From contig CAMDOO010000011.1 in assembly GCA_945903545.1 (NCBI GenBank), positions 1 through 54,378 on the forward strand: a DNA stretch of 54,378 nucleotides, read 5' to 3'. The notes beneath the pieces are model-generated. The model saw only the letters and a list, made by a program, of their open reading frames with translations, made no database searches and was not told the origin of the DNA. The stretch comes from Opitutus sp. GAS368 (GTDB lineage Bacteria > Verrucomicrobiota > Verrucomicrobiia > Opitutales > Opitutaceae). Shown here piece after piece: positions 2,045 to 41,456 of this stretch. Positions within the stretch are counted from its first letter, which is position 1. Each line of letters opens with the position of its first letter. The translations under genes and the position numbers were made by a program.

Positions 2045-4165
2045 TCAACGGGTCGAAGTCAAGAGGGATTGCGTGAGCATCAGCGCATCCAAGGCCACGG
2101 CTCCTTCACCCTGCGGGTGGACGAGCACGGGATTGAGATCGATTTCAGCGATCGACGGCTCGGAAAGCATGAGGCGTCCGAGCCGGGAAATGATTTCCGC
2201 GACCGCACCGACGTCGAGGGCGGGTGAACCGCGGAAGGCGTGCAGTAGCGGCGCCTGCTTGAGCCGGTTCAGCTCGGCGATGATCGCGGGGGGCGCGAGA
2301 TCGGGGGGCAGCAGGCGTACATCTTGCAGGATCTCCGCCGCGACACCGCCGAAGCCGGCGAGGATCACCGGGCCCCATTCGGGATCGTTGCGCGCGCCGA
2401 TGATGAGCTCGACGCCGCGCCGGCCCATCGCCTCGACGAGGACACCTTCGAGGACGAGCCCGGGACGGTGCTGGGCCAGGTTGGCGTGGAGCCGGTTCCA
2501 GCCCGCCGACAGCGCGGACGCATCGGCCAGACCGATGATGACTCCGCCGGCATCGCTCTTGTGACTGAGCTCGGCGGACTGCGCCTTGAGCACGACCGGA
2601 AAGCCGATTTCCGCCGCGGCCGTTTGCGCGGTCTCGACGCTGGTCACGAAACGGCCGCGGGGAAAGGGGATGCCCAAACGACCGAGAATTTCCTTGGCCC
2701 GGTATTCGGGGATCACGCCGACGGCCGGGGGCAGGCCGTCGGCCCGGAGCGGGGCGGGCGTCATCAACGGGGGGCGAGCCGCCCATTCGCCGGTCCGCGC
2801 GAGCGCCCGGAAGGCGCGTTCGGGGGAAGGGAAGTAAGGCACGCCCAGCGCCCGCAGCTCGTCAATGTACTCGGACGGAACCACCGCACCCTCGTCGAGC
2901 CCGGCGAAGATGACCGGCTTGGCCGGCTTCCGCTCGCGGAGGGCGGCGAGCAAGGGGGGGAACTTCAGGGCGGCGGTCGTGCGGTCGGTCTGGATGATGC
3001 CGAGCACGATCGAGCCGAAACAAACATCGTCCAGCAGGGGCGCCAGAGTCCGCCGGTAAAGGTCGGGGTCGACCAGCGGTTGGGCGGTGAGATCGAGCGG
3101 GTTGCTGACGGGGATGAAGTCAGGCATCGCCGCCCGCAGGCGCGCGGAGCACTCCCCGGCGGGTGCCGGCAGCGCCAGGCCGATGGACTCGCACAGGTCG
3201 AGGGTGAGGGCCTTGAAGGCGCCGGAATCGGTCAGCACCGCGGCGCCGCCTCCCGCCAGCGCCGGGCAGCGCAGCGCGAGGTCGAGGACATCGCCGAACT
3301 CCTCAAGACCGGACGCGAGCAGCACCCCGGCGTGCTCGACCTTCGTGCGCATGACCTCGAAGTCACCGGCCATGGCGCCGGTGTGCGTGGTGGCAGAAGC
3401 CCGGGCGGCTTGGGAACGGCCCGGATGGAGCAGGACGATCCGCTTGCCGGCGGCCCGCGCCCGGCGGGCGGCGGCGAGGAAACGGCGGGGCTGGCGGAAT
3501 TGCTCCACGATCAGCGCGATGACCCGGGTGGCGGGATCGTCCACAAGGTACTCGGTGAAGTCCTCCACGCCGGTCGCCGCCTCGTTGCCGGTCGAGATCG
3601 AGAACGAAAGGCCGAGGCCGCGGGCGAGCAGGTTGATCTCCAGCACCGCGGCCATGGCACCGCTTTGCGAGATGATGCCGATGCCGGGCCGGTCGCCGAG
3701 TTTCTCGGCCGGCATCTCGATGAAGGTGAGCGGCACGCCGTCAACGAAGTTGACGAAGCCGAGGCAGTTCGGCCCCTCCAGGACAAAACCATGTTCCCGG
3801 GAGAGGCGGGCGAGCTCGCGCTGCTCGGCGAGGCCCGCCTCGCCTCCCTCGGCGAATCCGGCCGAGAAGACGATGATCGCGCCGACCTGGCGCGCGGCGA
3901 GCTCCCGGGCGGTCGCGAGCACCGCGGCGCGCGGGATGGCCAGCACCGCGACGTCGATGCCCGGGGGAAGTTCACTGACCGAGCCGCAGCATTTGCGCCC
4001 GCCGATCTCGGCGCGCTTGGGGTTGACGAGATGGATTTCTCCCCCGTAACCGGCGCGTTCCAGATTGGAGAGCACCGAGGCACCGAGGGCGCCCGGGGTG
4101 GCCGAGGCCCCGACGATGGCAATCGAGCGGGGCCGGAGCAGGCGGTTGAGGGATGGGGTGGTCAT
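2045..4165 (-). CDS. NDP-forming acyl-CoA synthetase (acetate--CoA ligase family)
   Basis: A 706-residue fused alpha-beta protein of the ADP-forming acyl-CoA synthetase family. Residues 1-140 are the CoA-binding fold (RSIAIVGASATPG, LEGPNCLGFVN). Residues 155-290 are the succinyl-CoA-synthetase-like part with SQSGAMAA and the phosphohistidine loop THTGAMAG (His261). About 490-700 is the ATP-grasp domain (GFPVVLKAQS, LSHKSDAGGV, EIDLNPVLV). It activates a carboxylic acid to its CoA thioester, or runs in reverse to make ATP. The substrate cannot be read from the sequence. ATG at 4165 was preferred to an upstream ATG at 4213 because the family begins there and the extra codons fall in repeat DNA. 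It is third in a minus-strand set after thiolase and dehydrogenase/hydratase genes. Confidence 0.85.
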   Translation of the reverse strand: MTTPSLNRLLRPRSIAIVGASATPGALGASVLSNLERAGYGGEIHLVNPKRAEIGGRKCCGSVSELPPGIDVAVLAIPRAAVLATARELAARQVGAIIVFSAGFAEGGEAGLAEQRELARLSREHGFVLEGPNCLGFVNFVDGVPLTFIEMPAEKLGDRPGIGIISQSGAMAAVLEINLLARGLGLSFSISTGNEAATGVEDFTEYLVDDPATRVIALIVEQFRQPRRFLAAARRARAAGKRIVLLHPGRSQAARASATTHTGAMAGDFEVMRTKVEHAGVLLASGLEEFGDVLDLALRCPALAGGGAAVLTDSGAFKALTLDLCESIGLALPAPAGECSARLRAAMPDFIPVSNPLDLTAQPLVDPDLYRRTLAPLLDDVCFGSIVLGIIQTDRTTAALKFPPLLAALRERKPAKPVIFAGLDEGAVVPSEYIDELRALGVPYFPSPERAFRALARTGEWAARPPLMTPAPLRADGLPPAVGVIPEYRAKEILGRLGIPFPRGRFVTSVETAQTAAAEIGFPVVLKAQSAELSHKSDAGGVIIGLADASALSAGWNRLHANLAQHRPGLVLEGVLVEAMGRRGVELIIGARNDPEWGPVILAGFGGVAAEILQDVRLLPPDLAPPAIIAELNRLKQAPLLHAFRGSPALDVGAVAEIISRLGRLMLSEPSIAEIDLNPVLVHPQGEGAVALDALMLTQSLLTSTR

Positions 4166-13691: not shown

Positions 13692-13831
13692 CTACCCGCG
13701 AACGCACGCGAATGAACGCGAATGCGGTGGTGTCTGGCCGCCCCTGAAATGTGGAGCCTTGGATTCGGTGACGGACGGGAAACGTCCAAAGTGGATTGGG
13801 ATTCGCATCCATTCGCGTCGATTCGCGGGTA
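13692..13831. repeat. Family A inverted repeat between livG and livF
   Basis: The left arm (13692-13726) carries ACCCGCGAACGCACGCGAAT followed by GAACGCGAATGCG. The right arm (13799-13831) is its near reverse complement (ATTCGCATCCATTCGCGTCG and ATTCGCGGGT). About 33 nt pair with few mismatches, and about 72 nt lie between the arms. Confidence 0.8.
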
Positions 13832-13849: not shown

Positions 13850-14632
13850 TCATTGCTGGGCTGGGTGCTCCTCGCCGAGGTAGGCCTCGATCACCTTCGG
13901 GTCGCTCTGGATCGCGGCGGGCGTGCCCTCGGCGATCTTGAAGCCGTAGTCGAGGACGGTGACGCGTTCGCAGACGCCCATCACGACCTTCATCGAGTGC
14001 TCCACGAGCAGGATCGAGAGGGAGAACTGCTGCCGGATCTGGAGGATGAGCCGGCTGAGCTCGGCCTTCTCGGTCGGATTCATCCCGGCGGCGGGTTCGT
14101 CGAGCAGCAGGAGTTTGGGCTTGGTGGCGAGGGCGCGCACGATCTCGAGCCGGCGTTGCTCGCCATAGGGCAGGGAGGCTGCGGGGGCATCGCGCAACCG
14201 GCCGAGGTTGAAAATGCCCAGAAGCTCGTCGACCTGCCGGTCGATCCCCGCCTCGTCCGCATGGAAGGCCGGGGTACGGGCGAGGGCCTGGAACGGGCCG
14301 GTCGTCCGGTGGGCGTCGCAGGCGGCACGGACATTGTCGGCGACGCTCAACTGTCCGAAGAGCCGGATGTTTTGAAACGTGCGCGCGATTCCGAGGCGCA
14401 CGCGGCGGTTGACCGGCAACCCGGCGAGGTCCTGCCCGCGGAAAAGCACGCGCCCGGAGCTGGGGGCGTAGATCCCGGTGACGAGGTTGAAGACAGTGGT
14501 CTTGCCCGCGCCGTTCGGCCCGATGAGCCCGACGAGCTCATTCTCGCCGATCGTGAGGTCCACGGCATTCACGGCGGTGAGCCCGCCGAAACGCAGCGTG
14601 ACCTGCTCGAGCTGGAGGAACGGGGCGGACAT
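13850..14632 (-). CDS. livG: Branched-chain-type ABC transporter ATPase LivG
   Basis: A 260-residue ATPase of the LivG class. Walker A is GPNGAGKT (38-45). GIARTFQNIRLFGQLSVADNV carries the Q-loop, LPYGEQRRLEI is the signature variant typical of LivG, and LLLLDEPAAGMNP is Walker B. The C-terminal IAEGTPAAIQSDPKVIEAYLG is also characteristic. It energizes the LivHM permease. It is flanked on both sides by family A hairpin elements, so its mRNA would lie between two stable structures. Confidence 0.92.
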   Translation of the reverse strand: MSAPFLQLEQVTLRFGGLTAVNAVDLTIGENELVGLIGPNGAGKTTVFNLVTGIYAPSSGRVLFRGQDLAGLPVNRRVRLGIARTFQNIRLFGQLSVADNVRAACDAHRTTGPFQALARTPAFHADEAGIDRQVDELLGIFNLGRLRDAPAASLPYGEQRRLEIVRALATKPKLLLLDEPAAGMNPTEKAELSRLILQIRQQFSLSILLVEHSMKVVMGVCERVTVLDYGFKIAEGTPAAIQSDPKVIEAYLGEEHPAQQ

Positions 14633-14644
14633 CGGTCAGGAGGT

Positions 14645-14751
14645 TTGGCCCGCGAATGAACGCGAATGGGCGCGAATGGACGGAGGAAAATGCAAGGCTC
14701 CCAATCCACTGGGTTTGAATTCGGATGCATCCGCGGGCATTCGCGGGCAAA
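14645..14751. repeat. Family A inverted repeat between livM and livG
   Basis: The left arm (14645-14680) reads TTGGCCCGCGAATGAACGCG and continues with GCGAAT words. The right arm (14720-14751) holds ATGCATCCGCGGGCATTCGC then GGGCAAA. It fills the gap between livM and livG. Confidence 0.75.
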
Positions 14752-15789: not shown

Positions 15790-15824
15790 GAAATTTCAAA
15801 TTTCAAATTTGAGATCTGAAATTC
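15790..15824. repeat. Family I hairpin (AAATTTCAAATTTC words) between livH and livM
   Basis: GGAAATTTCAAATTTCAAAT is followed by TTGAGATCTGAAATTC; the two halves pair imperfectly (about 10 of 13). It is a strikingly AT-rich insertion in a GC-rich operon. It sits between livM (start 15732) and the livH stop (15851). Confidence 0.55.
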
Positions 15825-15850: not shown

Positions 15851-16777
15851 TCATACCTTCTCGGGTTGGAATCGCCCCAGCAGGCCGGCCGGGCGGAAGA
15901 GGAGGATCAGGATCAGCACGCCGAAGACGATCGGGTCGCGGTAGGTGGGCGAGAGATACCCGACGACCAGCGCCTCAAGCACGCCGATGAGCAGCCCCCC
16001 GACGACCGCGCCCGTGAGGCTGCCGATGCCGCCGAGGACGGCCGCGACGAAGGCCTTCAAGCCCGCGGCGATGCCCATGAGCGGATCAATGGAAGGCTGT
16101 TGGATCGAGGCGAGGATGCCGGCCGCGCCGGCCAGGGCCGAGCCGAGGCCGAAGGTCAGGGCGATGATCCGGTCGAGGTCCACGCCCATCAGCTGGGCGG
16201 CGGTCGGATTGAGCGAGAGCGCGCGCATGGCGAGCCCGGTCCGGGTGCGGCCCACGACCTGGCGCAGGCCGCCGAGCAGGAGCAGCGCGATCCCGAGCAC
16301 CAGCACCTGCGAGAGGGTGATCGTCAGCGTCGCCAGCGACCCCAGCGCCGGCGGCAGCACGAGGGCCCGGTCGGTGATGAGCTCGGGGAAGGAGCGCGGG
16401 TTGGCGCCAAAGACGAACTGGCCGCCGTTCTCCAGCAGCAGCGAGACGCCGATGGCGGTGATGAGGACGGTGAGCCGCGGCCGGCCGCGCAGGGGCCGGT
16501 AGCAGAGCCGCTCGATGGCCATGCCCGCGAGGGCGCACGCGAGCATCGCAATCGGCAGCACGAGCAGCACCGCGGCGAGGGAGGGGCCGACCCCCGTGAT
16601 GCGCAGCACCGCGGGCCCGGCATAAAAGCCGGCGAACGCCCCCAGCATGAAGATGTCTCCGTGCGCGAAATTGATGAACCGGAGCACTCCGTACACCATC
16701 GTGTACCCCAGTGCGATCAGCGCATAGATCCCGCCCTGGGCGAGTCCGTTGATCAGCTGCTGGAGGAATTCGATCAT
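15851..16777 (-). CDS. livH: Branched-chain-type ABC transporter permease LivH
   Basis: A 308-residue permease with about eight membrane segments. QQLINGLAQGGIYALIALGYTMVYGVLRFINFAHGDIFMLGAF at the N-terminus is diagnostic for LivH. The C-terminal part has KAFVAAVLGGIGSLTGAVVGG and the ending FRPAGLLGRFQPEKV. It forms the transmembrane channel with LivM. ATG at 16777 begins the conserved N-terminal helix. In the usual liv order the binding-protein gene would lie directly upstream; here a four-helix-bundle gene between inverted repeats intervenes. Confidence 0.92.
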   Translation of the reverse strand: MIEFLQQLINGLAQGGIYALIALGYTMVYGVLRFINFAHGDIFMLGAFAGFYAGPAVLRITGVGPSLAAVLLVLPIAMLACALAGMAIERLCYRPLRGRPRLTVLITAIGVSLLLENGGQFVFGANPRSFPELITDRALVLPPALGSLATLTITLSQVLVLGIALLLLGGLRQVVGRTRTGLAMRALSLNPTAAQLMGVDLDRIIALTFGLGSALAGAAGILASIQQPSIDPLMGIAAGLKAFVAAVLGGIGSLTGAVVGGLLIGVLEALVVGYLSPTYRDPIVFGVLILILLFRPAGLLGRFQPEKV

Positions 16778-16784
16778 CGGGTTG

Positions 16785-17236
16785 GTCGAGAGCTGAGAGT
16801 CGAGAGTCCAGAGCCCGATCAGGCGGAGGAATCGCCGCCGAGAGAGTCGCGCAGGCCGCTTAGCATCCGGGAGATTTCTTCTGCAGCCTCATAAATCTGG
16901 TCAAACTGCGCCCCGGATAGAAAGCCTCGCCGGCGGGCGACAAAGGACTGGGTCACGACTTCGTAGAGCGAACCCGTCGCGTAGCCAATGAAGCGGCAGA
17001 AATCAGCATCACTTCGGGCCGAGCCCTCGGCAATATTTGAGCCGATGGAAACGGCCGCGCGCCGGATCTGGCTGGTCAGGCCGAAGCGCTCGTTATCCGG
17101 AAACTGTTGGCTGATCTCGTAAACCGCGTCGGCGAACGCAATCGACTTTTGCCAGACGGCGAGTTTTTCGAAGCGAAACACGTTGGTCGGCTGATTGGAT
17201 TCTGGCTCTCGACTCTCAGCTCTGGACGCTCGACTC
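16785..17236. mobile_element. Family D inverted-repeat cassette carrying a four-helix-bundle gene
   Basis: AGAGCTGAGAGTCGAGAG at 16789-16806 is repeated exactly in inverse orientation at 17206-17223, with partial pairing continuing outward. The roughly 400-nt interval holds one gene (16819-17181). The cassette sits between the livK-type and livH genes. The same arm family occurs without a gene at 18482-18565 and 40950-41062. This resembles 23S rRNA intervening sequences, where a four-helix-bundle gene lies between complementary ends, but here it is intergenic. Mobility is inferred from this arrangement; no target duplication was established. Confidence 0.6.
16819..17181 (-). CDS. Four-helix-bundle protein (23S rRNA IVS-encoded protein family)
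   Basis: A 120-residue protein of the family named for proteins encoded in 23S rRNA intervening sequences. Hallmarks are FRFEKLAVWQKSIAFADAVYEIS, FPDNERFGLTSQIRRAAVSIGSNIAEGSAR, then FIGYATGSLYEVVTQSFVARRRGFLS and a last helix. The family forms pentameric helical bundles; its function is unknown, though relatives assist reverse transcriptases in diversity-generating retroelements. No reverse transcriptase is seen here. The start is GTG at 17179-17181. The gene lies between the arms of a perfect 18-bp inverted repeat and interrupts the liv operon, so it looks like a passenger gene rather than a transporter component. Confidence 0.9.
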   Translation of the reverse strand: MFRFEKLAVWQKSIAFADAVYEISQQFPDNERFGLTSQIRRAAVSIGSNIAEGSARSDADFCRFIGYATGSLYEVVTQSFVARRRGFLSGAQFDQIYEAAEEISRMLSGLRDSLGGDSSA

Positions 17237-17241
17237 GTCGA

Positions 17242-18360
17242 TCACGGCGCCACCGTCTCCTGGAATTTGAACCCGCCCTGGTTGATGGTCAGGATGACGG
17301 CGGACTTGGCGGCGTTGCGCTGGGCGTCGAGGGTGATCACTCCGGTGATGCCGGCGTGGTTCTTGGTCGCCGCGATGGCGTCGCGGAGCTTGGCGCTGTC
17401 GGTGCCGCCGGCTCGCTTGATGGCCTCGGCGAGGATCATGGCGCTGTCGTAGCCGAGGGCGGCCATGTCGTCCGGGGTGGAGTTGTATTTGGCGCGGTAC
17501 TTGCGCACGAAGTCCTGCACGGCCGGGCGGGTGTCGTCGGTGCTGAAGTGGGCGGAGAAAAACGAGCCGTCGAGCGCGCCGGCGGCGACCGGGAGCAGGG
17601 ATTCGCCCACCCAGCCGTCGCCGCCGAGGAGGGGGACGTTGAGGCCGAGCAGGCGGGCCTGCTTGCCGATCAGCGCGACCTCGCCGTAGTAGCCGGGCAC
17701 GAAGACGGCGTCGGGGGCGGCGCCCTTGATCGAGGTGATCTGGGCGCGGAACTCCTTGTCTCCGCTCGAGTATTTCTGGTCGCGGACGATCGTGCCGCCG
17801 TTGGCGGTGTAGTATTTCACGAAGAACTCGGCGAGGCCGACGGAGTAGTCCTGCTTTACGTCGGTGAGGACGGCGATTTTCTTCCAGCCCTTGCTCAGGG
17901 CGTACTTGGCCATGACGGTGCCCTGGAAGGGGTCGATGAAGCAGACCCGGAAGATGTAGTCGCCGGTCTCGGTGACCTTGGGGTTGGTCGAGGCGGGCGA
18001 GATCATCGGGATCTTGTTCCGCTGGGCAATCGGAGCCCCTTCGAGGGACTTGGAGGAGGCAACCTCGCCGAGGAGGGCGACGACCTTGTCCTGCGCGATC
18101 AGCTTCTGCACGGCGGTGGCGGCCTGGCCGGCCGTGGACTGGTCGTCCTCGAGGATGAGCTGGAGGCGGCGGCCGAGGACGCCGCCGGCGGCGTTGATTT
18201 CGTCGATGGCGAGCTGGGTTCCGTTGTGCGACTGCCGGCCGAAGCTGGCGTTCGCGCCGGTCATGGACGCGAATTCACCGATCTTGATGACGTCCTGGGC
18301 GGCCGCGGGGGCAGCGAGGAGGGCGAGCCCGAGCAGGGCGGGGAGCAGGCGGGAGTGCAT
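17242..18360 (-). CDS. Branched-chain-type ABC transporter substrate-binding protein (LivK/J-like)
   Basis: A 372-residue periplasmic binding protein. Residues 1-22 are a signal peptide ending AAPAAAQ. The mature part begins DVIKIGEFASMTGANASFG and contains AIDEINAAGGVLGRRLQLILEDDQS, then IPMISPASTNPKVTETGDYIFRVCF, the standard pattern of Leu/Ile/Val-type receptors. It captures the ligand and delivers it to LivHM. There is no lipobox; the protein should be soluble in the periplasm. It is the first gene of the liv set, and its start is followed upstream by an empty family D repeat, so D-type repeats flank it on both sides. Ligand identity is not evident. Confidence 0.9.
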   Translation of the reverse strand: MHSRLLPALLGLALLAAPAAAQDVIKIGEFASMTGANASFGRQSHNGTQLAIDEINAAGGVLGRRLQLILEDDQSTAGQAATAVQKLIAQDKVVALLGEVASSKSLEGAPIAQRNKIPMISPASTNPKVTETGDYIFRVCFIDPFQGTVMAKYALSKGWKKIAVLTDVKQDYSVGLAEFFVKYYTANGGTIVRDQKYSSGDKEFRAQITSIKGAAPDAVFVPGYYGEVALIGKQARLLGLNVPLLGGDGWVGESLLPVAAGALDGSFFSAHFSTDDTRPAVQDFVRKYRAKYNSTPDDMAALGYDSAMILAEAIKRAGGTDSAKLRDAIAATKNHAGITGVITLDAQRNAAKSAVILTINQGGFKFQETVAP

Positions 18361-18476
18361 GGGGGAGGTGAGGGTCGGGAGGGAGGCGGGGAACCGGCGC
18401 CAGCCAAGGAGACGTGGGCCGGGTTTTCAAACTGTATCGAGGGCTGAGAAGCAGAGATTGTTCCGGTTGAGGTAGT

Positions 18477-18590
18477 CGTGCGCTGAGGGTCGAGAGCCTG
18501 ACTTCCCGGCGGATTCCCGTTTGGGATGATTTGATCGATCAGCGTTCCGTCTCTCGATCCTCAGCTCTTGACTCTCGACTGCCGGGATCG
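18477..18590. repeat. Family D inverted repeat, empty copy
   Basis: GCTGAGGGTCGAGAG (18482-18496) pairs with CTCTCGATCCTCAGC (18551-18565), 14 of 15 positions, and further GACTCTCGACT words follow to about 18580. No gene lies between the arms. It lies in the 280-nt gap between the divergent binding-protein and lptG-like genes, where promoters must also be. Confidence 0.75.
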
Positions 18591-39910: not shown

Positions 39911-40930
39911 TTATTTCCCCGGCTTGTGCTGCATGCCGCGGCGGTGGACATCGGCCCAGTGCGTGTCGGGGATGATGGGGCCGAGGTGGCGGACGGTTTC
40001 GGCGCCGACCAGCGAGGCGAGGGCCCCGGCGGCCGGCAGGGACCAGTCCTTGAGGTAACCGTAGAGGAAACCCGCGGCCCAGGCGTCGCCGGCGCCGTTG
40101 GAGTCGATGGCGTCGGTGACGGCCAAGGGAGCGATGCGGTGCAGTTCCTGGCCGCGCGCGATCCAGGCGCCGTCCTTGCCGAGGGTCACGGCGGCGGTGC
40201 CGCCGAACTCGGCGAGGCGCTTGGCGTGGGCGGCGTAGTCCTCGGGACCCTTGGCGGGCAGGTCGGGGAAGAGCGTGCGCGCCTCGTCCTCGTTGGCGAA
40301 AGTCAGGGCAAGGCCGCGCTTGAACTGTTTCAGCAGCCATTCGCGGGAAGCGCCGACGACCTCGAAGGAGGCGAGGGAGAGTCCGACGGTGGCACCGGCG
40401 GCGCGGGCGGAGTCGAGGAAGGCGTCGGCGAGGGCCTGGTTGAATACCACGTAGCCCTCGATGTGGACGTGGCGGGTGCCCTCGAAGTCGCGGGCGTGCA
40501 CTTCGGAGGGGTCGAGGCTCATGACGGCGCCGAGGCAGGTGCGCATCGTGCGCTGGGCGTCGGGGGTGGTGAGCGCGAGGCAGCGGGCGTTGGGCAGTTC
40601 GGCGTGGTGCTTGAACCGGCCGGTATGCACGCCCGCTTGCGCAAAGCGGTCGCGGTAGAGCCGGGCCAGATCGTCGGCGCCAAGCTTTCCGACAAAGGCG
40701 GTGCGCAGGCCGAGGCGGGCGGCGTTAAAGGTGGTGTTGGCCGCCGACCCGCCGGGCGTGAAGAGCGGCTTGGCCGGGAGTTTGGCGACGATCTGCTCCA
40801 TTTCGTCGGGCTCGACCATGACCATCCCGCCCTTGGCGCCCGGGACGTGCAGCAGAAAGCTTTCGGGCACGGGTGCCACGATATCCATGATGGGGGCGCC
40901 AACGCCGATGAGGTCAAAGGTGTGTTGCAT
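39911..40930 (-). CDS. PfkB family carbohydrate/nucleoside kinase, adenosine-kinase-like
   Basis: A 339-residue ribokinase-superfamily enzyme. GVGAPIMDIVAPV starts the fold, GGSAANT (60-66) is the first PfkB signature region, and DSNGAGDAWAAGF (276-288) is the second, with the catalytic base Asp282. The overall arrangement, including LGAVMSLDPSEV, fits the bacterial adenosine-kinase-like subgroup, which phosphorylates adenosine or a related nucleoside with ATP. Ribokinase activity is an alternative. ATG at 40930 starts the Rossmann-like strand; the in-frame extension to 41137 is repeat-encoded. It is followed on the same strand upstream by the DUF6941-like gene across a family D repeat. Confidence 0.82.
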   Translation of the reverse strand: MQHTFDLIGVGAPIMDIVAPVPESFLLHVPGAKGGMVMVEPDEMEQIVAKLPAKPLFTPGGSAANTTFNAARLGLRTAFVGKLGADDLARLYRDRFAQAGVHTGRFKHHAELPNARCLALTTPDAQRTMRTCLGAVMSLDPSEVHARDFEGTRHVHIEGYVVFNQALADAFLDSARAAGATVGLSLASFEVVGASREWLLKQFKRGLALTFANEDEARTLFPDLPAKGPEDYAAHAKRLAEFGGTAAVTLGKDGAWIARGQELHRIAPLAVTDAIDSNGAGDAWAAGFLYGYLKDWSLPAAGALASLVGAETVRHLGPIIPDTHWADVHRRGMQHKPGK

Positions 40931-40949: not shown

Positions 40950-41062
40950 TAGTCGAGAGTCGAGAGCCGGAAATCCGGAGCGAGCCGCCGAGAAAAGGCA
41001 ACAGTCTGAGTGGTCCCGGTCGCAGTCTTCCGGCTCTCGACCCTCAGCTCTGGACTCTCAAC
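40950..41062. repeat. Family D inverted repeat, empty copy
   Basis: GTCGAGAGCCGGAA (40959-40972) is perfectly inverted at 41028-41041 (TTCCGGCTCTCGAC), with further CTCAGCTCTGGACTCTCAAC words beyond. The arm words are those framing the four-helix-bundle gene at 16819. It is empty, in the gap upstream of the adenosine-kinase-like gene. Confidence 0.8.
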
Positions 41063-41066
41063 TGGA

Positions 41067-41456
41067 TCATTGGCCCCCGCCGACGATGAGGTCGGTGGTG
41101 ACCAGGAGCTCGTCATCAACCTCGACGACGATGGCATAGGTGCCCGGCATGGGGAAAGTGAGGCCGCGGACCTCGTTGATGAGGTTGATTTGCTGGGTCG
41201 GGCCGGGGGACTCGAAGGTGCGCTCGATGACGGGCTTCGCGGCGGAGCCTTCGAGGCCGAACGAGATCTTCAGCTTGTGCTCGCCGGTGGCGCAGTCGGT
41301 GAGCGACAGGAACCAGACCAGGTGCGGATGGCTGATGGGGAAGCGGAGCGAGTTGATGTTCGAGAACACGCCGAGAATGGTGGGCTTGCCGGTCGCAGGG
41401 TCGAGGTGGACGCCGTCGCAGGTGAGCCAGCAAAGCAACTGGGGCTTGGATTTCAT
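41067..41456 (-). CDS. DUF6941-like small protein
   Basis: A 129-residue cytosolic protein. It starts KPQLLCWLTCDGVHLDPATGKPTILGVFSNINSLRFP and ends PGTYAIVVEVDDELLVTTDLIVGGG, a pattern like DUF6941 proteins, which are predicted beta-sandwich domains of unknown role. No signal peptide or membrane segment is seen. ATG at 41456 was chosen over 41630 because the extra residues fall in hairpin-rich DNA. It precedes the adenosine-kinase-like gene on the same strand by 136 nt. Confidence 0.6.
   Translation of the reverse strand: MKSKPQLLCWLTCDGVHLDPATGKPTILGVFSNINSLRFPISHPHLVWFLSLTDCATGEHKLKISFGLEGSAAKPVIERTFESPGPTQQINLINEVRGLTFPMPGTYAIVVEVDDELLVTTDLIVGGGQ

Follow-up and report, generated by a model that had tools for sequence, protein, structure and literature searches.

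In REPIN/RAYT systems, a gene is flanked by palindromic ends, and the same ends also occur in the genome as copies that lack the gene. The STRRs of cyanobacteria are heptamers, and to our knowledge, there is no agreed source for interspersed heptamer repeats. For two Xanthomonas genomes, one study reports 70 and 75 inverted pairs of GGGAATC, at a mean of 28 nt from the neighboring 5' ORF and with the heptamers at more conserved places than controls, and few inverted pairs for the heptamers of Nostoc (PMC4692102). Arrays of TAACTGA have been described in Beggiatoaceae, and where genomes contain many long simple repeats, the most frequent unit is mostly a heptanucleotide, for which polymerase slippage has been proposed (PMC4679880).

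Genes of the four-helix-bundle family PF05635 (S23p) are known from 23S rRNA intervening sequences (IVSs). According to PMC4990558, the Coxiella IVS measures 428 to 444 nt, with a 28-bp stem, and is excised from rRNA by RNase III in vitro, its authors rating the RNA above the protein; mobility has been suggested for IVSs. The same paper states that S23p-family structures have been solved, that one of them, from Xanthomonas, is reported as a homopentamer, and that the function of these proteins is not known (PMC4990558). PF05635 has also been found in rRNA insertions of CPR bacteria (PMC11270868).

Here, we analyze a gene of this family in a stretch of 54,378 nt from Opitutus sp. GAS368 (the window), where it stands between protein-coding genes and is framed by inverted arrays of a short word. 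In the reading that we prefer, to which we give a probability of about 0.6, a single gene and its inverted word-array ends make up a minimal mobile DNA cassette, roughly 400 to 450 bp long. A full-text literature search, with most subscription journals outside its scope, yielded no description of this arrangement among the best-ranked matches, and term counts for a four-helix-bundle gene with heptamer repeats were 0 in both PMC4679880 and PMC4692102.

RESULTS

The livK-livH junction of the window

The whole cassette, comprising word arrays and gene, occupies positions 16785 to 17236 on the reverse strand; its neighbors, on this strand too, are a livK-type binding protein gene upstream (Peripla_BP_6; 17242 to 18360) and a livH-type permease gene downstream (BPD_transp_2; 15851 to 16777). 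The gene itself (16819 to 17181, reverse strand) has a GTG start and encodes 120 amino acids. A first-pass annotation made from the letters alone had placed it in the four-helix-bundle family of 23S IVSs, and the profile search agrees, with PF05635 (23S_rRNA_IVP; E value of 1.1e-37, 128.9 bits) and TIGR02436 (E value of 2.9e-35). Besides PF05635, the one Pfam family matching the protein is bAvd, which falls below its cut-off, and the Pfam profiles revealed no recognized transposase and no HUH (Y1) transposase in it. Relatives with solved structures are 2gsc (XCC0516 of Xanthomonas) and 2rld. No rRNA match was found in the window at the Rfam gathering threshold.

An exact 18-bp inverted repeat around the gene, between the livK-type and livH genes, had also been claimed, and positions 16789 to 16806 are indeed exact reverse complements of 17206 to 17223. 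On the coding (reverse) strand, the 5' arm (17206 to 17227, continuing to about 17236) and the 3' arm (16785 to 16806, continuing to about 16814) are reverse complements at 21 of 22 positions, 18 of them consecutive, and weaker pairing extends inward as far as 16820 and 17193. Calling the repeat perfect was correct for the exact arms and missed that each arm consists of tandem units of 7 nt, GTCCAGA, GCTGAGA, and GTCGAGA plus a final G, which are versions of one degenerate word (GTCCAGAGCTGAGAGTCGAGAG), and that each such gene of the genome has another word.

Two further arrays lie in the neighborhood. Between the livM-type and livH-type genes, A+T-rich AAATTTC units occupy 15792 to 15823, with a hairpin score that is too weak (7.0). 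Inverted arrays of a 10-nt-period word (ATTCGCATCCATTCGCGTCGATTCGCGGG) at 13801 to 13829 and 14649 to 14677 flank the livG-type ATPase gene (13850 to 14632) and resemble arrays seen around GxxExxY genes.

The first-pass annotation had also listed gene-less inverted repeats of the same word at 18482 to 18565 and 40950 to 41062, and both hold up. The first has arms at 18474 to 18496 and 18551 to 18573, with divergent genes on either side, and its score of 13.0 is below the census threshold of 14; the second has arms at 40955 to 40972 and 41028 to 41045 around a loop of 55 nt, scores 15.5, and is flanked by reverse-strand genes at 39911 to 40930 and 41067 to 41456. The 18-mer of the cassette's arm was found at 7 places of the genome and a control with the pattern reversed at 4 places, which we interpret as similar arrays read in a different register. 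Five places of the 18-mer are outside the window's cassette: three are gene-less hairpins (L001, L004, and L007), one is at a contig end (L005), and one has a single arm in the stretch examined (L006). As for chance, 450 kb of the genome including the window held 138 inverted repeats scoring at least 14, 54 of them with a 6- to 10-nt period (2 of these 54 counted twice in overlapping stretches), versus 12 and 0, respectively, in one Markov-shuffled copy of the same 450 kb.

Framing of PF05635 genes in this genome, its relatives, and other phyla

In the 3.08-Mb genome, the family search located PF05635 at 13 places, the weakest two of which (L019 and L020) are below the curated cut-off. Inspection by eye shows inverted arrays on both sides of every one of the 13, each place having its own word, including GTAGCGA at gyrB-gyrA, AGGAGTC at nuoF-nuoG, and GTGACGA, AGATGTC, GGAGGCT, GATTTTT, and others; the unit was read by eye as 6 nt at L015 and as longer and palindromic at L019 and L020. 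Within 250-bp flanks, 12 of the 13 score at least 16, and L019 reaches at least 14 only with wider flanks.

In the set covering the genome, its genus, family, and phylum, framing with a score of at least 14 was found at 61 of 80 loci and in none of 154 windows shifted by 850 bp (71 versus 5 at a score of at least 12). These 80 are the best matches (81) minus L031, which has a short flank; they include the 13 places of the genome itself and a split gene counted twice, of which L028 is the second fragment. Arms paired from two different loci reached at least 14 in 37 of 2,000 draws, and flanks in direct orientation did so in 8 of 80 loci. An early, lenient arm scoring had given means of 26.2 for own pairs and 16.1 for mismatched pairs, one of which scored 35; the later scores are stricter. 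Across many phyla (Nitrospirae, Bacteroidetes, Clostridia, Planctomycetes, Acidobacteria, CPR groups, and others), 59 of the best 80 of 587 matches in GTDB species genomes were framed at a score of at least 14 versus 3 of 149 shifted windows (68 versus 9 at a score of at least 12). Enrichment of the arms around such genes elsewhere, the expectation of the first-pass annotation, is thus seen in both sets. The loci scoring below 14, 19 of 80 among relatives and 21 of 80 in the broad set, are weighed against the mobile-cassette reading.

Of 288 genomes sampled across this phylum, 220 contain the gene family. One tblastn query matched 28 of 72,556 plasmid records and none of 50,697 phage records. 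Eight of the 28 plasmid records were scored, all of them cyanobacterial, and 7 of the 8 loci are framed, two of them being near-identical copies from a single strain; in the remaining locus (L345), the 5' array is complete and the 3' array overlaps the gene end. Six loci (L356, L357, and L360 to L363) are outside these framing counts.

Several loci showed features of their own. Two PF05635 loci, L078 and L085, have longer, differently built inverted repeats, with units of about 9 nt and about 20 nt. At L339, framed with a score of 31.5, the gene lies between the ribonucleotide reductase beta and alpha genes in the opposite direction. In L345, L361, and L010, the 3' arm enters the gene, so that the last codons and the stop codon are made of word units. 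In L191, from a KSB1 genome, two Acido-Lenti-1 RNAs (2474 to 2519 and 3047 to 3092) lie near the four-helix-bundle gene.

A degenerate short word that follows the protein

Word statistics were pooled over 160 loci (L028 dropped), of which 122 score at least 14. The best lag was 7 in 86 of these 122 framed loci and 8 in 25, and the mean self-match, about 0.25 at other lags, rose to 0.332 at lag 8 and to 0.517 at lag 7. Read on the coding strand, the 5' arms (median length of 31 nt) are purine-rich (G, 1,501; A, 1,168; T, 970; C, 614), and 116 of 122 contain AG. The consensus word includes AG in 92 of the 103 loci of clear 7- or 8-nt period; once 7-nt words are anchored on AG, no phase is more strongly conserved than the G of this dinucleotide (0.97, partly by construction). 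Words are distinct in 57 of 71 seven-nucleotide loci. The word family of the first-pass annotation was thus an incomplete description: it is not a single sequence, and the rule is an inverted short-word array that differs from element to element. In 57 of 84 cases, arms align better in their own register than after a shift of one unit, so that a unit variant in one arm mostly recurs in the other, an outcome expected of pairing or of templated copying.

Word similarity correlated with protein similarity across 118 loci, excluding proteins with stops as well as L078 and L085 (r = 0.175; none of 300 permutations as high), and also between this phylum and others (r = 0.164; 6 of 500 permutations as high). 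The word was shared in 71% of 35 pairs with a protein score of at least 0.7, in 15% of 129 pairs at 0.6 to 0.7, and in about 1% or less of pairs below 0.5. Among the 35 closest pairs, 31 have a common neighboring gene within 1.5-kb flanks, and 21 of these 31 share the word; much of the linkage is therefore inheritance in place, which is weighed against mobility. The word is also shared in all four closest pairs without a common neighbor. Arms of the GGCACAGAGGCACAAAG type are common to L190 (Nitrospirae), L076 (this phylum), and L193 (Desulfobacteraceae), and L241 and L198 both have GTGGTTAGTGGTTAG arms, with no common neighbors in either case. Furthermore, the nuoF-nuoG cassette of the genome and a cassette on an Aulosira plasmid have AGGAGTC and 83 of 118 residues in common. 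At a conserved place in Flavobacteria, the word was wholly replaced (L231 and L240 versus L194, L197, and L202), indicating that words drift or switch while the framing stays.

These patterns bear on the idea that the arrays are simple repeats born of slippage and template switching and that the gene merely persists inside the hairpins. The own-register match is what templated copying would leave, unit number varies between the near-identical full copies of Trichormus variabilis and Scytonema described below, and PMC4679880 names heptanucleotides as mostly the commonest units in repeat-rich genomes and proposes slippage. Nevertheless, shifted windows of the same loci yielded only 0 of 154 and 3 of 149, words track the protein lineage even between phyla without common neighbors, and a second, unrelated gene family follows the same plan with another period (see below). 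Accordingly, we regard passive persistence of the gene in such hairpins as unlikely.

Gene-less hairpins and the level of pairing

Word-periodic hairpins with a loop of less than 200 nt were counted in 850 kb, or 28% of the genome (the window and 40 stretches). This census found 58 gene-less hairpins (empties), 53 intergenic and 5 intragenic. According to a home-made gene caller, the intergenic ones lie between genes of the same direction in 39 cases, convergent genes in 11, and divergent genes in 2, with 1 at a stretch end; the 452 intergenic gaps of at least 60 nt divide into 278, 81, and 93, respectively. For the 39 same-direction empties, the median distance is 12 nt from the preceding stop codon and 24 nt to the following start. 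In 21 of the 58, the word is that of a cassette of the genome itself. Conversely, a same-word empty within the 850 kb was found for 8 of 13 own cassettes, 3 of 7 of the genus, 4 of 22 of the family, 1 of 21 of the phylum, and 6 of 59 of other phyla; the family cassettes are not independent negatives, since some carry the word of an own cassette.

The scarcity of empties between divergent genes (2, while 93 of 452 gaps are divergent), the intergenic position of 53 of 58, and the short distance past the stop codon (n = 39) would suit an action on RNA, in which RNase III cuts the stems or the four-helix-bundle protein binds them, as in IVS processing or a post-transcriptional regulon coordinating operons of the same word. 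The in vitro cleavage by RNase III of a Coxiella rRNA IVS of the same protein family points the same way (PMC4990558). However, RNA pairing predicts more G.U than A.C mismatches on the transcribed strand (defined by the coding direction of the gene or its neighbors), and G.U did not exceed A.C in the cassettes (141 versus 154), in 43 own empties between codirectional genes (32 versus 36), or in GxxExxY cassettes (22 versus 28), all three comparisons having no positive control. An RNA stem under selection is hence unsupported by these equal counts, and a stem at the DNA level is favored. None of the 80 broad loci reaches the threshold of an Rfam rRNA family, and at these junctions, the sister genomes have either a different word or no array, unlike a conserved regulon. 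We therefore consider the RNA-based explanation improbable. From the first-pass interpretation, which combined a small mobile cassette having full and empty forms with RNA processing, the former part is retained and the latter is not.

Retro-mobility through a resident reverse transcriptase was also considered and rejected, as PF00078 (RVT_1) has no match in the genome (completeness, 98.64).

A second, unrelated gene family in word-framed cassettes

GxxExxY genes (PF13366, PD-(D/E)XK superfamily) from the genome and phylum were framed at 32 of 37 loci versus 1 of 71 shifted windows (34 loci versus 5 windows at a score of at least 12), leaving aside L328 at a contig end and the fragments L188 and L189. 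The best period of their arrays was 9 in 18 of 32. Since this family is unrelated to PF05635 and is framed likewise, the framing plan is not tied to one protein fold. A GxxExxY gene beside a reverse transcriptase has been reported (PMC8934634).

Different occupants at single junctions

Each junction survey comprised the best 30 of 60 to 108 genomes with a match. The livK-livH junction is not always occupied, in line with the empty sites expected at first pass: the cassette is present in 8 of 30 family loci, and both sister genomes (G001 and G002) are without it. As read by eye, a truncated gene was retained in L177 and a lone arm with the word of the window's cassette in L153; of the 22 others, L163 offers too little sequence and L165 has a different upstream gene. 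The cassettes in these 8 of 30 loci look long-lived, like a tolerated resident, which we weigh against the mobile-cassette reading.

At gyrB-gyrA, four-helix-bundle cassettes with scored arms were found in 4 of 30 genomes, plus L139 by eye, empties of different words in 5, and GxxExxY cassettes in 2, whereas 18 had no periodic hairpin. The two GxxExxY cassettes, L137 (G053) and L144 (G041), stand where other genera carry four-helix-bundle cassettes, and in L137 an arm with the word of the four-helix-bundle cassette persists beside the GxxExxY cassette, as seen by eye. At nuoF-nuoG, 2 of 30 genomes have cassettes, 7 have empties, and 21 have neither. A 7-nt repeat beside the arms of L008, TGATCGA, was rejected as a target duplication; TGATCG occurs at both places in the uninserted sister genome G002, and the repeat is native stop/start context.

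Full and empty sites on cyanobacterial plasmids

An exact pair of full and empty sites, as foreseen at first pass, was found once, on cyanobacterial conjugative plasmids. One site is full in T. variabilis (L345, plasmid C of strain ATCC 29413) and Scytonema (L357) and empty in Aulosira, Nostoc linckia, N. carneum, and Fremyella, with 97 to 98% identity. The insert, counting one copy of GTAAT, is 428 bp (T. variabilis versus N. linckia) or 414 bp (Scytonema versus Aulosira); the 5-bp GTAAT is duplicated in both comparisons of this single site, and no more than about 10 nt separates the word arrays from the ends of the insertion. The two near-identical full copies differ in unit number. For L362 versus L367, a duplication of TTCTA was read by eye, with two other empties differing at the site. 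Thus, 1 of 7 full/empty comparisons has exact boundaries and one more has them by eye; in the other 5 (cas6-cas4, integrase, TraM, cmr2-cmr3, and the L361 set), the sequences are too diverged or rebuilt for a boundary to be placed. One relative (L349) retains the left arm with a truncated gene.

Target duplication as a general mark was rejected: direct repeats of at least 5 nt beside the arms were not in excess in 131 loci (18 of 131, or 0.137, versus 0.177 in cross-pairs) or in the 58 empties. Given this negative general test, a single fresh insertion is the only one with a demonstrated duplication, and a second is likely to have one.

Four-helix-bundle genes also occur between cas6 and cas4 or between cmr2 and cmr3 on cyanobacterial plasmids (L340, L346, and L360). 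The word arrays of L340 and L346 score 27.0 and 25.0, and the repeats of L360 were seen by eye; framed in this way, the genes look like further cassette landings and not cas components. An earlier study reports 18 PF05635 genes in cas loci, one of them between cmr3 and cmr2 (PMC3936711). A Dolichospermum plasmid (L350) compared with L340 at cas6-cas4 carries a different inverted-repeat element (GTAGGTTGGGTTGA...) replacing the cassette, with 98.8% identity in the matched parts.

The plasmids also inform on site-specific homing, whereby each protein lineage would be tied to one junction and spread by recombination there, like homing introns. Recurrence of livK-livH, gyrB-gyrA, and nuoF-nuoG across the family, related words at livK-livH and gyrB-gyrA, and the common neighbor of 31 of the 35 most similar protein pairs are compatible with it. 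On the contrary, L345, L361, and L362 belong to one lineage (proteins 78 to 83% identical, with a common word family) and occupy three different places on these plasmids, and a similar protein and word recur in different phyla without common neighbors, which makes homing very unlikely.

DISCUSSION

The mobile-cassette reading draws on what the computation shows: framing and its breadth, the linkage between word and protein, and empties of the same word. Different occupants at the junctions, one exact full/empty site, and no RNA-wobble bias are equally part of the record. The cassette ends in inverted arrays whose degenerate short word usually has 7 nt, and the sole gene that it carries encodes a four-helix-bundle protein, solved relatives of which are pentamers. 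In the proposed mechanism, ends and gene would move together as a single unit and land in intergenic DNA, often right behind a stop codon between operon genes. Gene-less hairpins with the same word may then be non-autonomous copies, generated by spread in trans or by gene loss. The most likely role of the protein is recognition of its own word hairpin; in this putative role, it would bind the word array, which is probably folded into a DNA hairpin or cruciform, and the binding would help the hairpin to be copied or kept.

It is important to consider the observations that are weighed against this reading in addition to those given above. The cassette contains no DNA-cutting enzyme, there is no surplus of direct repeats next to the arms, only 1 of 7 full/empty comparisons is exact, same-word empties accompany 8 of 13 own cassettes in the 28% of the genome covered, and the Xanthomonas GGGAATC heptamers are at more conserved places than controls (PMC4692102).

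Beyond the single cassette, a wider proposal can be advanced tentatively, at somewhat less than even odds: word-framed cassettes may form a new class of mobile DNA in which small proteins of at least two unrelated families (four-helix bundle and nuclease-like GxxExxY) read hairpins of private, drifting words of about 7 or 9 nt, and they may be the source of cyanobacterial, xanthomonad, and other interspersed heptamers. If the cassette reading is true, the function of S23p and the origin of heptamer repeats both become testable, a very common small mobile element has been filed as hypothetical genes and simple repeats, and operon junctions are shared landing sites.

Comparison with known systems

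Among described systems, the 23S rRNA IVS is similar in the protein family and in the complementary ends that frame the gene, here exact arms of 18 nt. In contrast, the IVS lies inside rRNA and the present cassette between protein genes, with short-word arrays that differ per copy, gene-less hairpins of the same word, and no RNA-wobble bias. The likeness to Avd of diversity-generating retroelements is a weak one at the profile level (bAvd, 23.9 bits versus a cut-off of 40; DivGenRetAVD, 21.6 versus 80 bits), and unlike those elements, the genome has no PF00078 reverse transcriptase. With REPIN/RAYT, the cassette shares dispersed gene-less copies of its ends, the own-cassette word being present in 21 of 58 empties; however, it is without the HUH transposase of those systems (TnpA-REP), its ends are 7- to 8-nt tandem arrays, and its word changes per element (57 of 71 distinct), whereas the REP end sequence is conserved. 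Like MITEs and insertion sequences, the cassette has terminal inverted repeats, here in the form of word arrays. Finally, the heptameric intergenic repeats (STRRs, GGGAATC of Xanthomonas, GGGGA(C/T)T of Nostoc, and TAACTGA of Beggiatoaceae) are likewise 7-nt intergenic tandem units, but the arrays described here are the ends of a gene-bearing cassette.
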